A stretch of DNA of 41,829 nucleotides, from assembly GCA_016178625.1 (NCBI GenBank), contig JACOSX010000146.1:1-41829 (forward strand), given 5' to 3'. The DNA comes from Ignavibacteria bacterium (GTDB lineage Bacteria; Bacteroidota; Ignavibacteria; UBA10030; SZUA-254). Below the pieces are notes generated by a model. That model made no database searches, was not told the DNA's origin, and worked only from the letters and a program-made list of their open reading frames with translations. Shown in pieces: positions 23,676 to 31,815 of the stretch (positions are counted from its first letter, which is position 1; each line of letters opens with the position of its first letter). A program made the position numbers and the translations under genes.

Positions 23676-25073
23676 ATGCAAAATCACAGAGAGAAAATAG
23701 TTCTCATCTGTCTTGACATTTTCACCCTCAACCTCGCCTGGTCTATGTACTTCTGGATCCGGGTGCGGAGTGGGTGGTTCTCACACTCGCTCGAGCCCGA
23801 TTTCTGGGCACCAATGCTTGCAGTCTGCGTTTTTTGGATGCTGGTATTTTTCCTTTTCGGATTATATCGTTCGTGGTACGCGCAGTCGCGGTTTGACGAG
23901 TTTGCAGCGATCTCCAAGTCAGCGACCTTTGGTGTTCTGGTTTTGTTCTTCGCCATCTTCGTTGATGACCGAGGGGTCGGAACTCCTCTTGAATCGCGCC
24001 TTCTCATTCTCATCTATTGGACGCTGATGGTAGTCTGCGTTGGAGGTGGTCGATTCTTGCAGCATACGTTTCAACGCCGATTGCTGCAGGCTGGAATCGG
24101 GTTGCGCAACACGCTGATCGTTGGCTGGTCGGCAAAAGCCCGCGAGCTGTATGATTCAATCAAACTGTATCCCGCTCTGGGCTACAAGATCGTGTGTTTT
24201 GTCCCTGTCGCAACTGAACCACTACGAGAGTCATACAAAGATGTTCCAATCGTCGACTCCATCAGGGAGCTGCCTGCGATCATTGATCGGTACGATGTGA
24301 AAGATGTCCTTATCGCTCTCGACTCGACCGAGCATGACAAACTTCTCTCGGTCATCGCTTCATGCAATTCTCATGAGATTAGTTTGAAGATCATCCCCGA
24401 TCTGTACGATATCATTAGCGGACAGGCGCGCACTAACCAGATCTACGGATTCCCCCTCATTGAGATCATGCCTCAGTTGATGCAGCCTTGGGAACGGGCA
24501 GTGAAGCGGACGATCGATATCGTGGTCTCGTTCATGATTCTTTTCATAGGATTTCCCCTCTGGCTTCTTGTCGGTCTTCTCATTAAGCTCGAATCCCAGG
24601 GTCCGGTCTTTTACACGCAGGAACGTGTTGGGAAGGAGGAGAAACATTTTCGCATCATTAAGTTCCGCTCGATGCACGCAGAAGCAGAGCGGGACTCAGG
24701 TCCGGTGTGGGCTGAAAGGAAAGATCCGCGAGTGACCCGCGTTGGCAAAATCCTTCGGATGTCACGGATCGATGAAGTACCTCAGTTCATCAATGTCCTT
24801 GACGGCAATATGAGTCTTGTGGGGCCACGGCCCGAGCGCCCGTTTTTTGTCGATCAACTTTCGAAGGAAATCCCACTCTATAAACGTCGCTTGAAGGTTC
24901 GCCCCGGCGTTACAGGTTGGGCACAGGTCAAGCATAAGTATGATGAGAGCGTTGAAGATGTCCGGAAGAAAGTTCAGTACGACCTATGGTACATCGAGAA
25001 CATGACGCTGCGGTTGGACTTCAAGATCCTTCTCAATACGATTGTCGTTGTGCTCACCGGAAGGGGGCACTAG
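23676..25073 (+). CDS. Undecaprenyl-phosphate sugar phosphotransferase (WcaJ-like, initiating)
   Basis: A 465-residue polyprenyl-phosphate hexose-1-phosphate transferase. It has four N-terminal helices (about residues 8-125), a CoA-binding-like Rossmann domain (about 145-265), and a C-terminal catalytic domain with a membrane re-entrant segment (about 277-303). The catalytic part is intact: GPVFYTQERVG (309-319), FRIIKFRSM (325-333), the essential Asp-Glu dyad in RIDEVPQF (D366, E367), SLVGPRPERP and RPGVTGWAQV. It loads the first sugar phosphate onto undecaprenyl phosphate and so starts each repeat unit. It closely fits the EpsB/WcaJ-type family common in XrtA-type loci. Confidence 0.92.
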   Translation: MQNHREKIVLICLDIFTLNLAWSMYFWIRVRSGWFSHSLEPDFWAPMLAVCVFWMLVFFLFGLYRSWYAQSRFDEFAAISKSATFGVLVLFFAIFVDDRGVGTPLESRLLILIYWTLMVVCVGGGRFLQHTFQRRLLQAGIGLRNTLIVGWSAKARELYDSIKLYPALGYKIVCFVPVATEPLRESYKDVPIVDSIRELPAIIDRYDVKDVLIALDSTEHDKLLSVIASCNSHEISLKIIPDLYDIISGQARTNQIYGFPLIEIMPQLMQPWERAVKRTIDIVVSFMILFIGFPLWLLVGLLIKLESQGPVFYTQERVGKEEKHFRIIKFRSMHAEAERDSGPVWAERKDPRVTRVGKILRMSRIDEVPQFINVLDGNMSLVGPRPERPFFVDQLSKEIPLYKRRLKVRPGVTGWAQVKHKYDESVEDVRKKVQYDLWYIENMTLRLDFKILLNTIVVVLTGRGH

Positions 25074-26765: not shown

Positions 26766-26789
26766 GTGTTCAATCCACGACGAGTACAT

Positions 26790-28073
26790 ATGGATGAACA
26801 GGGTTCTGTTGAGATCAAGACGCATACGCGCAGTCATGGATGGTGGATCTTTGGCGCTGCTTTGGTCGCGAGGTTTGTTGCAGTGTTGGTCATCGGTAAC
26901 GCGACTACTCCCCAACTCTGGGAATTCGGCATGATTGCCAAGAATATCATCTCAGGATCGGGTTATAGCATGTCGTACACAGCCGCTGGTGCAATTCCGA
27001 ACGAAGAAAAAGGTGCATTCACGGTTCCCAGCGCCTATATGCCACCGGCTTATGTGCTTTTCCTTGCCGGATTCATGAATGCTTTTGGCGAGGGACCCAC
27101 ATCGTTCCTCGCGTTACTCATCGCACAATGTGTCATAGGTGCGTTCAGTGCCGTCGTGCTGTATTGGATATCGACAAAAATATTCAGCCACGGCGTCGGA
27201 ATAATCACAGGATATCTATGTGCGTGTTATCCTCCATATCTATACACAGTCACTGATTACGGGTCAACAACGCTGTATCTTTTGGTGTTGGGAATTGTCT
27301 GGCTATTCGTTGTTGATTCTATGAGAAAATCTACAATCCTGAACACTGTACTCAGTGGGCTCGCTGCCGCATTGCTCGCACTCATCCGCGCAGATGGAGT
27401 ATTGATAGCATGTGGCTTAGCGGTTTGGTTGGCGCTTCGGGGGTTGACGCCGTATGCACTGGTTTTCTTGGTTGTGCTGGTGGTCGGGCTCTCGCCCTGG
27501 CTCCTCAGAAACTATCTGGTCTTCGATCGCATTGTCCCGATTACGACTTCATTTGGCTTCAATTTCTGGCGCGGTCATAATCCGATAGCGTCTGGATCGG
27601 GAAGAGAGATGTCCGGTGAGGGAATCTGGGGCTCTGAGGAAATCGACCGAAAGTTGATCCCACTATCTCCTTCTACACACTATGAGATCGAACGTGATAG
27701 AGTGTTTCTCGATGAAGCTCTGATTTTTGCTCGCAGCCACCCGAAGGAAGAGATTATTCTTGCGGGGAAGAAATTGTTGTTTTTGTGGGGGCTCGATCTC
27801 ACGCACCCCAAAGCACGCAGTCTCCCTTATCTTCTTTCCTGGGGGGTGATGCTGTGCCTATTTTGTTTCGGGCTATACCACGCTATAGGGAAAGGTTACA
27901 ATCTGAGCCTTCTCGTGATGTACTATGGTTGCATGATATTGATTGTATTAATATTTTTTGTTCTCCCGCGATATCAGATCATTCTTTCATACGGGATGGT
28001 TCCCGTTGCGGCTCTCGGTCTCTCGATGGCGTGGAATCAGTTGAAGAAGTATGGCCATCGATCAAATTCGTAA
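26790..28073 (+). CDS. GT-C family glycosyltransferase (GT39/ArnT-like)
   Basis: A 427-residue polytopic protein with about 10 helices. The first loop contains LWEFGMIAKNIISGSGYS, the pattern found in GT-C transferases that use polyprenyl-phosphate sugars, with glutamate in the place of the usual acidic residue. RNYLVFDRIVPITTSFGFNFW GHNP-type residues after the middle helices are typical of the GT39/DUF2029-like group. It probably transfers a sugar from a lipid carrier at the periplasmic face. A GTG at 26766 would add eight residues; ATG 26790 was preferred. The polyprenyl-phosphate sugar synthase encoded next would supply its donor. Confidence 0.75.
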   Translation: MDEQGSVEIKTHTRSHGWWIFGAALVARFVAVLVIGNATTPQLWEFGMIAKNIISGSGYSMSYTAAGAIPNEEKGAFTVPSAYMPPAYVLFLAGFMNAFGEGPTSFLALLIAQCVIGAFSAVVLYWISTKIFSHGVGIITGYLCACYPPYLYTVTDYGSTTLYLLVLGIVWLFVVDSMRKSTILNTVLSGLAAALLALIRADGVLIACGLAVWLALRGLTPYALVFLVVLVVGLSPWLLRNYLVFDRIVPITTSFGFNFWRGHNPIASGSGREMSGEGIWGSEEIDRKLIPLSPSTHYEIERDRVFLDEALIFARSHPKEEIILAGKKLLFLWGLDLTHPKARSLPYLLSWGVMLCLFCFGLYHAIGKGYNLSLLVMYYGCMILIVLIFFVLPRYQIILSYGMVPVAALGLSMAWNQLKKYGHRSNS

Positions 28074-28135: not shown

Positions 28136-28852
28136 ATGGCGAAAACACTTGTCGTAACACCGACTTATGACGAAGCACCAAACATTGAAACCTTCATCAC
28201 TCAGGTTCTCAAACAGGATGCAGGTGTTGAAATCCTTGTGGTAGATGATAATTCCCCGGATGGAACCGGTGATCTTGTCGAGAAACTGATGTCGCAGAAC
28301 CCGAGGATCCACCTTCTCCGTCGACCAGGGAAAATGGGATTGGGGACTGCCTATGTTGAAGGGTTCAAGTATGCCATTGCGAATACGTTCGATTACGTCT
28401 TCGAGATGGACGCGGATTTCTCTCATAGTCCGGAAGAGATTCCTTCGTTTCTTACGAAGATGGAGATGTTCGACTTAGTGATTGGCTCCCGATACACAAA
28501 CGGAGTCCGCGTTATCAACTGGCCCATACGCCGGCTGATCTTAAGTTACGCTGCGAATGTCTACACGCGCATCATAACCGGTATGCCGATCAAGGATGCC
28601 ACAGGCGGCTTCAAGTGTTTCCGACGTCGTGTGTTAGAAGCAATCGATCTTGACAATATCCACTCCAACGGGTACGCGTTCCAGATTGAGATGAACTTCA
28701 AAGCATGGAGCAAAGGATTCAAGGTATGTGAGCATCCGATCATTTTCCTGGAGAGGACTTCGGGTGTCTCGAAAATGTCGCGGAAGATTGTGTATGAAGC
28801 TGTCTTCATGGTGTGGAAATTGAAGATTCGAAAGTTATTAGGAAAACTCTGA
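28136..28852 (+). CDS. Polyprenyl-phosphate sugar synthase (DPM1-like GT2)
   Basis: A 238-residue GT2 enzyme like dolichol-phosphate mannose synthase. Motifs are TPTYDEAPNIETFI, VVDDNSPDGTGDL, the metal-binding MDADFSHSPE and DATGGFKCFRR. It has no C-terminal membrane helices, like the soluble short DPM1 type. It makes a polyprenyl-phosphate monosaccharide, probably mannose or a related hexose, from a nucleotide sugar. The neighbouring GT-C transferase is a fitting user of this product. Confidence 0.9.
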   Translation: MAKTLVVTPTYDEAPNIETFITQVLKQDAGVEILVVDDNSPDGTGDLVEKLMSQNPRIHLLRRPGKMGLGTAYVEGFKYAIANTFDYVFEMDADFSHSPEEIPSFLTKMEMFDLVIGSRYTNGVRVINWPIRRLILSYAANVYTRIITGMPIKDATGGFKCFRRRVLEAIDLDNIHSNGYAFQIEMNFKAWSKGFKVCEHPIIFLERTSGVSKMSRKIVYEAVFMVWKLKIRKLLGKL

Positions 28853-28861
28853 TTTCAAGCA

Positions 28862-30856
28862 ATGCAGCTTTCAGTGATCATAGTGAACTACAATGTGCGC
28901 GCGTTTCTGGAAAACGCTCTCATTTCCGTCAGGAAAGCACTGGCTGGGATTGATGGGGAAGTAGTTGTTGTTGACAACGCATCAGATGACGGGAGCGTTG
29001 AGATGGTTGAATCAACGTTTGCCGATGTGGCGCTCATTATCAACAAACACAACGATGGGTTTGCCGCAGCAAATAACCTTGCCATGCACGAGTGTACTGG
29101 CGAATATATTCTTCTCCTCAACCCCGATACGATTGTGCAAGAGGATACCTTCCGAACGATGCTTGAGTTCATGAATCAGCATCAAGAGGTGGGGATTGCC
29201 GGTTGTAAGATTCTGAATCCGGACGGAACACTTCAGCTACCGTGTCGACGTAGTTTTCCAACGCCCTGGGTTGCCTTCACGAAGATCAGCGGCTTGAGCA
29301 CGCTCTTTCCTTATTCGCGTTTCTTCGGAAAGTACAACCTTGCATATCTCGATCCCGACCAGACGTACGAGGTTGACGCGATCAGTGGCTCGTTCATGTG
29401 TGCGCGGCGAAAGGCGATTGAGGATGTGGGCGGACTTGATGAGCAGTTTTTCATGTACGGCGAAGATCTTGATTGGTGTTTTCGAGTAAAACAGGCAGGA
29501 TGGAAAATCTTCTACGTCCACACAACGCAAATTATCCATTATAAGGGAGAGAGTGCCCGCAGGAGCGATATCGATGAAGTCAAATTATTTTACAAGGCGA
29601 TGCGCGTCTTTGTGCAGAAACATTTTCGCCGCGGGATACTCCTCGATCTGATCCTCCGCGCAGGGATTGCCTCGCGTGAATGGGTCGCGTTCATCGGAAG
29701 GATTGCCAAACCGCTGCGCGCAGCCGCGCTGGATTTTGCTCTCGTCAATCTTTCGTTATTGCTCGGTGAGATGATCTGGTTCGGTGAGTTCTTTCATTTC
29801 CCTCGATATGCCTATCCGATCACGACAACGGTTCCGGCGCTTATGATCATCAGTGCGATGTATTCGCTTGGTGCCTATACGAGGCGGAAGTTATCCGTTA
29901 CACATGCGGCGGGTTCGGTGATCATCGGCTACGTGATTCTCTCAGCACTCACATTCTTTTTCAAACAGTATGCCTTCAGTCGAATGGTCGTTGTCATCTC
30001 CGGCATGGTCAACATGCTCGCCCTTCCGGGCTGGCGGCTGGCGGCTCGGGCGATCCTTCGTTCACCCGAGCATCGCCGTAAAAGCTTATTCGGTAGACGG
30101 ACGATCATTGTGGGCGCAGAGCGATCGGGACAAGAAGTTCTGCGGAAGTTGCGCGTACGGATTGATGATGGCTACGAAATTGTGGGATTTGTCGACATGA
30201 ATAGGAAACGCGTCGGGGAGAAAGTTTCGGGAGTTGAAATTCTCGGAAGTATTGACAATATTGGAAAAGTCATCCAGGAACAGAAGGCTTCAGAAGTGAT
30301 TTTTTCGACTGATACACTTTCGTACAGTGATATTCTCTCGATCATCGGTCGGAGTGGCAATCGGAACGTCAACTTCCGGTTGGTGCCAAGTAGTCTGGAA
30401 GTCATCATCGGGAAAACACATATCGATGAGCTCGATGACATTCCTCTTGTCGACATTGAGTACAACCTGAATCGCCCGGTGAACCGGTTTCTGAAGCGGC
30501 TGTTTGATCTTTGTGTTTCTCTTTTCCTCCTGGCGACGGTGTACCCATTTGTGTTACTTCGGAAGACATCGGAGAAGGGCAAGTTCGGAAGGAAAATTTT
30601 ATTACTTCCTAATGTCCTCCGAGGCACCATAAGCCTCGTCGGCGTACCGGAGTATACCGTGGAAGAGCTGCGCAATGGGTCGATGCCAGTGTACTGGGGG
30701 AAACCTGGTCTGACAGGACTTGTACAGATCAACTATCATGATGATTTACAGGCTGAGGAAGTGGAAAAATACAATTTGTATTATGCGAAAAACCAGTCGC
30801 TCATCCTTGACATCGAGATCCTTCTGAAGTCCTTTATTCTCCTCATCAGGAAATAA
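28862..30856 (+). CDS. Fusion: GT2 glycosyltransferase + Rossmann domain + degenerate sugar transferase
   Basis: A 664-residue fusion. Residues 1-260 form a complete GT2 domain ([38 protein letters not shown]) close to WbbL-like rhamnosyltransferases. Residues 285-400 contain about four helices, and 411-530 a Rossmann domain ([14 protein letters not shown]) as in WcaJ-like proteins. Residues 538-664 keep only the start ([19 protein letters not shown]) and the end ([48 protein letters not shown]) of a phosphoglycosyl transferase. The catalytic middle, including ERVG, KFRSM and the DE dyad, is missing, about 70 residues compared with the enzyme encoded at 23676-25073. The frame is intact, so this is probably an inactive membrane scaffold or regulator rather than a broken gene. 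It ends the polysaccharide locus. Confidence 0.85.
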
Positions 30857-30864
30857 GAACACCT

Positions 30865-31815
30865 ATGGCAAAGGCTGTTTTGGATTTCGAAAGGCCGATT
30901 GTTGAGCTCGAACAAAAGATCGAGGAGATGCGATCATATGCTGACTCACTTGACATTGCTGACGAGATCAAGACCCTCGAGGAGAAAGTGTTCCAACTGC
31001 GGAAGACTGTTTACACCGGTTTGACGCGCTGGCAAAAGGTCCAGCTCGCCCGTCATCCGGACCGACCGTACACGCTTGATTACATTTCGATGATGATGAC
31101 CGACTTCGTTGAGTTGCATGGCGATCGAAGTTTCAGCGATGATAAGGCAATTGTTGGAGGTTTCGCACGACTCGAAGGGGAACCAGTCATGGTTATTGGT
31201 CATCAGAAAGGAAGAGACACAAAGTCGAACCTCTATCGCAATTTCGGAATGCCGAACCCCGAGGGGTATCGAAAAGCACTACGTCTTATGAAGCTCGCGG
31301 CGAAATTCGAGCGACCGATTATCTCGATGCTCGACACACCGGGCGCCTACCCGGGGCTTGAAGCTGAAGAGCGCGGCCAAGCGGAAGCAATCGCACGCAA
31401 CCTTTTTGAAATGTCTCACCTTCCCGTCCCGATCATCATCGTTATCATCGGTGAAGGCGCTTCGGGCGGGGCGTTAGGAATTGGCGTCGGCGACCGTATT
31501 CTGATGATGGAGAATACGTGGTATTCTGTCATCTCGCCCGAATCCTGTTCCAGTATTCTGTGGCGAAGCTGGGATTATAAGGAACAAGCAGCAGAAGCGT
31601 TGAAGCTTACTGCCCCTGATCTGCTTGCACAAGGAATCATCGACAGTATCGTTCCTGAGCCTCTTGGCGGCGCTCATCGTAATCCACAAGAGGCTGCAAC
31701 GATGTTGAAGGATGTGCTGACCGAAGAACTTAAGAAGTTGAAAAAGATCAAGCCGGAGAAACTTATTGACAAACGCATCGAGAAATTTTCCGAAATGGGT
31801 GAGTACGAGGAATGA
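30865..31815 (+). CDS. accA: Acetyl-CoA carboxylase carboxyltransferase subunit alpha
   Basis: A 316-residue protein of normal length. It moves the carboxyl group from carboxybiotin to acetyl-CoA, together with AccD, to make malonyl-CoA for fatty-acid synthesis. Family motifs are [49 protein letters not shown]-like [11 protein letters not shown], and the oxyanion-hole glycines in [26 protein letters not shown] follows. It starts 8 bases after the fusion glycosyltransferase gene. accD is not in the window. Confidence 0.97.

Follow-up and report, generated by a model that had tools for sequence, protein, structure and literature searches.

Fusions between phosphoglycosyl transferases (PGTs) and glycosyltransferases are known, and both halves are taken to work. 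Large monotopic PGTs, such as WbaP and WcaJ (PDB 8t53), are composed of a four-helix bundle, a CoA_binding_3/Rossmann domain with a hairpin, a re-entrant helix, the SLVG and PG.TG motifs, and C-terminal helices. The WbaP dimer is held by the swapped beta-hairpin of the Rossmann-like domain, which points toward the active site of the partner chain, and a mobile helix-turn-helix lies close to the active site (PMC10942596). The same paper describes the class of bifunctional monotopic PGTs (Bi-PGTs), which carry two catalytic domains on one chain.

The window analyzed here is a stretch of 41,829 nucleotides from an Ignavibacteria bacterium. It hosts an uninterrupted reading frame of 664 amino acids (28862-30856, forward strand) that joins a GT2 glycosyltransferase to an incomplete large PGT (Table 1). 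The fusion shares with large monotopic PGTs all the elements listed above, but its catalytic domain is about 68 residues short, without the Asp-Glu dyad and the PRP motif, and it has an additional GT2 at the N-terminus. Like Bi-PGTs, it links a PGT-type domain to another enzyme of the pathway; however, its PGT half is predicted to be dead and only the partner appears active. With the PGT active site absent, the fusion falls outside the Bi-PGT class and may be seen as a one-armed derivative of it. The N-terminal domain has the fold of WbbL-type GT2s and, by analogy with them, probably acts on a polyprenyl-pyrophosphate-linked sugar, but it differs from them in scoring below the rhamnosyltransferase cut-off and in possessing its own membrane scaffold. 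Judging from sequence comparisons, this is a real fusion of a pseudo-PGT with a GT2, widespread and anciently conserved, and a variant of the known PGT fusions. Among the papers searched, none links 'phosphoglycosyl transferase' with 'pseudoenzyme'. We considered FpgA of Flavobacterium psychrophilum (PMC4293000) as a characterized relative, and claim no relationship.

Table 1. Features of the fusion gene and of its neighbors in the window
Feature	Position	Strand	Remarks
Complete WcaJ-type PGT, presumably active	23676..25073	+	Dyad D366/E367 at nt 24771-24776
Dpm1-like GT2	28136..28852	+	Adjoins the 5' side of the fusion, from Ignavibacteria to Marinimicrobia
GT2 fused to a large (WcaJ/WbaP-type) PGT predicted to be catalytically dead, whole gene	28862..30856	+	664 aa + stop
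GT2 (GT-A fold) domain, residues 1-235	28862..29566	+	Pfam PF00535, conservation, AlphaFold2 model
Membrane helix bundle, residues ~283-398	29708..30055	+	AlphaFold2 helices; PDB profile match to WbaP; counterpart of the WbaP four-helix bundle
CoA_binding_3/Rossmann domain and hairpin segment, residues 410-535	30089..30466	+	PF13727, 70.3 bits; model
Re-entrant membrane helix of the PGT domain, residues 539-566	30476..30559	+	K545, R546, D549 and helix-breaking P562 retained
Deletion junction, residues 567-581	30560..30604	+	Without RVG, KFR.M, mobile helix-turn-helix segment and Asp-Glu dyad
C-terminal PGT remnant, residues 582-664	30605..30853	+	SLVG and PGLTG loops, C-terminal helices; PRP motif lost; K643-E652 in place of the E-K pair of active PGTs
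accA (acetyl-CoA carboxylase carboxyltransferase alpha)	30865..31815	+	Adjoins the 3' side of the fusion in most relatives; no role in the mechanism assumed

The initial annotation of this gene described a GT2, WcaJ-like helices, a Rossmann domain and a partial PGT in an unbroken frame. The reading frame and Pfam confirm this order, with GT2 at residues 4-231 and CoA_binding_3 at residues 333-509. The first half is a member of the GT2 family (PF00535, 78.9 bits against a cut-off of 23.3). Bac_transf (PF02397) scores 54.4 bits against a cut-off of 27, although the match covers only positions 94-177 of the 179 in the profile. This calls for caution in annotation, as PF02397 clears its cut-off on a domain devoid of the active site. 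Besides the partial match in the fusion, the genome of the window contains two complete Bac_transf matches, which makes three in all. On the large-PGT model EPS_sugtrans (TIGR03025), the fusion remains below the cut-off (186.8 versus 295.55 bits), and the protein encoded at 23676-25073 passes it with 444.6 bits. The score on the rhamnosyltransferase model TIGR01556 is so far below the cut-off (51.8 versus 200.55 bits) that the term 'rhamnosyltransferase-like', used at first for this enzyme, is unsupported and can only be a loose label. No family model above cut-off assigns a donor sugar to the GT2, nor do structures.

The AlphaFold2 model of the fusion (mean pLDDT 83, pTM 0.62) consists of a GT-A domain, a helical bundle (helices 259-307, 315-335, 346-364 and 374-398), a Rossmann domain, a helix-break-helix at residues 539-566 and C-terminal helices, and its best match among PDB structures is WbaP (8t53, E 1.6e-12). 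In profile searches, residues 279-658 align to WbaP (E 6e-33) and residues 541-659 align to residues 7-186 of the small monotopic PGT PglC (PDB 8e37/8g1n; E 4e-17), whose catalytic loop and dyad are absent in the fusion. By analogy, the hairpin segment of the fusion would be equivalent to the dimer-forming hairpin of WbaP and would likewise have a dimerizing role.

We compared the PGT domains of 45 truncated relatives with 51 complete PGT domains, 45 stand-alone and six fused. When the fusion is aligned by BLASTP to the protein encoded at 23676-25073, residues 412-566 and 584-662 match and the catalytic core is skipped. Between the proline of the re-entrant helix (P562, equivalent to P294) and the glycine of SLVG (G594, equivalent to G383), the fusion has 31 residues and its neighbor 88, with around 57 missing; around 10 more are gone after SLVG. 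Overall, 120 residues separate K545 from the C-terminus in the fusion, compared to 188 from K277 in the neighbor, which corresponds to a loss of approximately 68. The roughly 70 missing residues reported initially are thus correct as a total, but they form two blocks and not a single gap. The Asp-Glu dyad, confirmed as D366/E367 in the neighbor, is kept at 98% in active PGTs and is absent in all 45 truncated relatives, which have mainly N/R/K and K/F/R at the two positions (R577-K578 in the fusion). RVG, KFR.M and PRPE/PRP are lost or replaced in the fusion and in nearly all truncated relatives, and the RR pair is likewise missing or substituted in the truncated domains. The segment missing from every truncated member also includes the counterpart of WbaP's mobile helix-turn-helix close to the active site. 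Since the dyad, RVG, KFR.M and PRP are all gone, the PGT part of the fusion should be catalytically inactive, in agreement with the first reading of the sequence. The re-entrant helix has stayed: the equivalents of K277, R278, D281 and P294 are retained in 41-44 of the 45 truncated relatives, and the fusion itself has both the basic motif (K545, R546, D549) and the helix break (P562).

Matches to the fusion (E <= 1e-60) are found in 59 of the 60 genomes sampled from the same order. In the genome collection, the search gave 80 loci, which belong to Ignavibacteria, Kryptonia, KSB1, Calditrichota, Thermochlorobacter, Marinimicrobia and Balneolales, and relatives occur also in Balneolia/Rhodothermia and Chlorobi. 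Among the carriers of the family is the culturable Stygiobacter electus (L083). With a looser threshold (E <= 1e-40), matches are detectable in 211 out of 296 genomes of the phylum, in 80 out of 82 of the KSB1-containing phylum and in 86 out of 100 of the Marinimicrobia phylum, all of which are upper bounds for the fusion because some matches involve the GT2 only. The truncated fusion is present as roughly one gene per genome across the order and several phyla. A pseudoenzyme fusion of this kind, initially considered unusual, is therefore common, and a search for the same domain order in relatives showed that the deletion is shared by all 45 aligned members. The recurrence of the same deleted-but-kept design about once per genome across phyla suggests that the dead half probably fulfils some function, the likeliest being that of a membrane anchor or docking platform. 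In Bacteroidia, relatives of around 390-430 amino acids (loci L220-L224) are composed of the GT2 and a Rossmann remnant, with neither the membrane bundle nor the PGT part, which indicates that the anchor is dispensable in some lineages. The genes near these relatives are mostly metabolic (GH3-like, 2-oxoacid dehydrogenase acyltransferase and others) and give no functional clue. A further Bacteroidia GT2 relative with a C-terminal Rossmann remnant (L182:4150-5433, minus strand), likewise without bundle and PGT part, has accA among its neighbors.

A quick tree built on the bundle and Rossmann region has a branch (SH-aLRT 99) that sets apart all 45 truncated fusions, and six GT2-PGT fusions that are intact (L213-L217, from KSB1) are placed among stand-alone PGTs. 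In a quick tree of the GT2, the same intact fusions group with stand-alone GT2s (98-99), and the Bacteroidia relatives L220-L224 fall on the side of the truncated family (SH-aLRT 98). As both of their halves tree with stand-alone proteins, the intact KSB1 fusions look like a separate fusion event; their distribution is far narrower than that of the truncated group. Relatives with a complete domain, which the initial annotation would have taken as a sign of recent deletion, do exist in KSB1, but the trees make them a separate fusion and not the parent of such a deletion. Both trees disfavor them as direct ancestors of the truncated family, while a single clade of all fusions is not rejected by the AU test on the bundle and Rossmann region (p = 0.33). 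In one KSB1 locus, a second copy of the intact type lies in tandem (L213:4093-6369, plus strand) and reads LEK where the dyad motif LDE is expected; it may be a second pseudo-PGT forming next to the intact copy. Another KSB1 gene encodes an 860-aa PGT-CapD-like fusion (L218:92-2671, minus strand) whose PGT domain is apparently dead, with V-H (LVHLPR) at the dyad, which is kept in a similar fusion at L219.

On balance, we favor the reading in which a working GT2 is mounted on a dead large monotopic PGT that serves as membrane and dimerization scaffold. The GT2 half is predicted to be active, as all examined motif residues (D38-N39, N87-P88-D89, E201-D202-x-D204 and H226) are invariant in the 45 relatives, and the catalytic residues are invariant or nearly so among 59 aligned proteins. 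According to this scaffold model, an ancestral GT2-PGT fusion would have lost the first-step activity once, and initiation would be carried out by a separate PGT, in the window probably the one at 23676-25073. Three elements that survive, the four-helix bundle, the Rossmann/hairpin module and the re-entrant helix, would hold the GT2 at the inner membrane. The fusion would probably be dimeric, with the GT2 positioned next to the polyprenyl-linked acceptor; anchoring and dimerization are both suggested by the homology to WbaP. The GT2 would then attach one of the early sugars of a lipid-linked glycan, and the conserved pathway involved would also draw on the adjacent Dpm1-like enzyme, a probable polyprenyl-phosphate sugar synthase. 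What may speak against an anchor is that the rate of evolution is 2-3 times higher in the remnant than in the GT2, and that the Bacteroidia relatives do without bundle and remnant. Under the scaffold model, a first-step enzyme was deleted from within, with its shell kept under selection and the GT2 left intact, and the family would represent a natural experiment on the non-catalytic parts of large PGTs, namely anchoring, dimerization and lipid docking. It would also mark a conserved, uncharacterized glycan step in Ignavibacteria, KSB1 and Marinimicrobia.

The surroundings of the gene bear on how closely the fusion works with an active PGT. In four sets of loci, the Dpm1-like gene is immediately 5' of the fusion in 63 out of 68, 28 out of 29, 21 out of 21 and 16 out of 16 cases, and accA is immediately 3' in 66 out of 71, 27 out of 27, 20 out of 21 and 15 out of 16; in a deliberately distant set the counts are 12 out of 45 and 21 out of 48, respectively. 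Wherever an Ignavibacteria-type locus extends far enough upstream (42 loci), it has a complete PGT on that side, encoded on the same strand as the fusion and separated from it by a median of 850 nt. The Balneolia/Rhodothermia loci run fusion, other gene, PGT, Dpm1-like gene, accA, and thereby keep fusion and PGT in one cluster. This proximity is consistent with a mixed dimer, in which the dead PGT part would bind the active PGT encoded at 23676-25073 via the Rossmann/hairpin module and hand the new lipid-linked sugar to the GT2. Such a dimer would also fit the swapped hairpin of WbaP-type PGTs, which reaches the active site of the other chain (PMC10942596), and the independent intact fusion shows the benefit of joining both steps. 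We nevertheless consider it unlikely. The hairpin sequences of the two proteins clearly differ, and none of the nine KSB1, Calditrichota and Marinimicrobia loci with wide flanks has a complete PGT near the fusion. Among 100 genomes of the Marinimicrobia phylum, the fusion and a full Bac_transf match occur together in 71, the fusion alone in 11, a full PGT alone in nine and neither in nine, so that a full monotopic PGT is not detected in 11 of the 82 fusion-bearing genomes, most of which may be incomplete. One of the 11 (G484), assembled into one contig of 3,404,291 bases, has no full Bac_transf match but two matches to polytopic PGTs (PF00953), and its fusion frame still has the PGT remnant. 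Obligate partnership with a monotopic PGT throughout the family is therefore rejected, within the limits of possibly incomplete drafts, and a link from the GT2 to the initiating PGT cannot be what the remnant provides in general. The initial proposal of a scaffold that ties the GT2 to the initiation complex thus fits the lineage of the window but not the whole family: to the extent that draft genomes can show it, fusion and PGT are closely partnered in the former and need not be elsewhere.

The PGT remnant could also be a decaying leftover that provides at most a crude membrane attachment and is slowly being shed. The distance between the re-entrant proline and SLVG, 87-98 residues in complete PGTs, is 48-60 in truncated proteins from KSB1, Marinimicrobia and Balneolia/Rhodothermia, and 22-36 in those from Ignavibacteria, Chlorobi and others. 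These three length classes suggest a stepwise loss of the PGT core, and decay would agree with this shortening, with the complete loss of bundle and PGT part in Bacteroidia, and with the relaxed dN/dS of the remnant relative to the GT2. In pairs of close relatives, however, the dN/dS of the remnant is well below 1 (approximately 0.05-0.5, mostly near 0.13, with most pairs at 0.05-0.2 and a maximum of 0.49), compared to approximately 0.03-0.07 in most comparisons of the GT2. This points to purifying selection on the remnant, less tight than on the GT2. Moreover, D549, G594, G616, Y641 and D650, all of them structural positions, are invariant among the 59 aligned sequences, and a charge pair that is E/D-K/Q in all 51 complete PGT domains is reversed in a coordinated manner to K/R/Q-E/D in 37 of the 45 truncated ones. 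Together with the presence of the gene in almost all genomes of the order, this makes simple decay quite unlikely. The constraint on the kept portion, seen in dN/dS and in the conserved KR..D..P helix, G.TG and C-terminal helix, makes a non-catalytic role reasonable, as had been suggested from the start.

A broader proposal combines the conserved pseudo-PGT with the adjacent active PGT, with which it would pair to channel the lipid-linked sugar to the GT2, within a core glycan pathway that Bacteroidota would share with sister phyla. We regard this combination as very unlikely. A review notes that the conserved core of protein O-glycans in Bacteroidota has as yet no assigned machinery (PMC12871550). 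That core is one candidate pathway for the fusion family, put forward speculatively and worth testing only, on the grounds of the broad distribution and the neighboring Dpm1-like gene and of nothing else.

It is highly improbable that the truncated domain still performs PGT or related chemistry using other residues. The conserved acidic residues D549 and D650 do remain, but active PGTs conserve them just as well, at positions with a structural role (D281 and D448), whereas the dyad positions and the other catalytic motifs have changed as described above. The alignment reveals no replacement acidic pair, which could have contradicted the predicted inactivity, other than residues common to active PGTs. 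An assembly or annotation artifact, or a recent deletion in this genome alone, is practically excluded and finds no support, as independent assemblies across phyla have identical architecture and the same missing segment.

Two further types of gene were observed around the fusion. In the window, the Dpm1-like gene is adjoined by a gene (26766-28073) for a hydrophobic protein of 435 amino acids with no Pfam or NCBIfam match, which by eye looks like a glycosyltransferase with multiple membrane spans. In five loci (L242:5123-7606, minus strand; L243:3724-6225, minus; L244:1641-4127, plus; L245:4719-7211, minus; L246:1194-3695, plus), the upstream complete PGT is itself a fusion of 828-834 amino acids, composed of a WecA/MraY-like polytopic PGT (IDGLDGLA, GDTGS and HIHHRL) and a complete monotopic PGT. 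Polytopic-monotopic PGT fusions were reportedly described by O'Toole in 2021.
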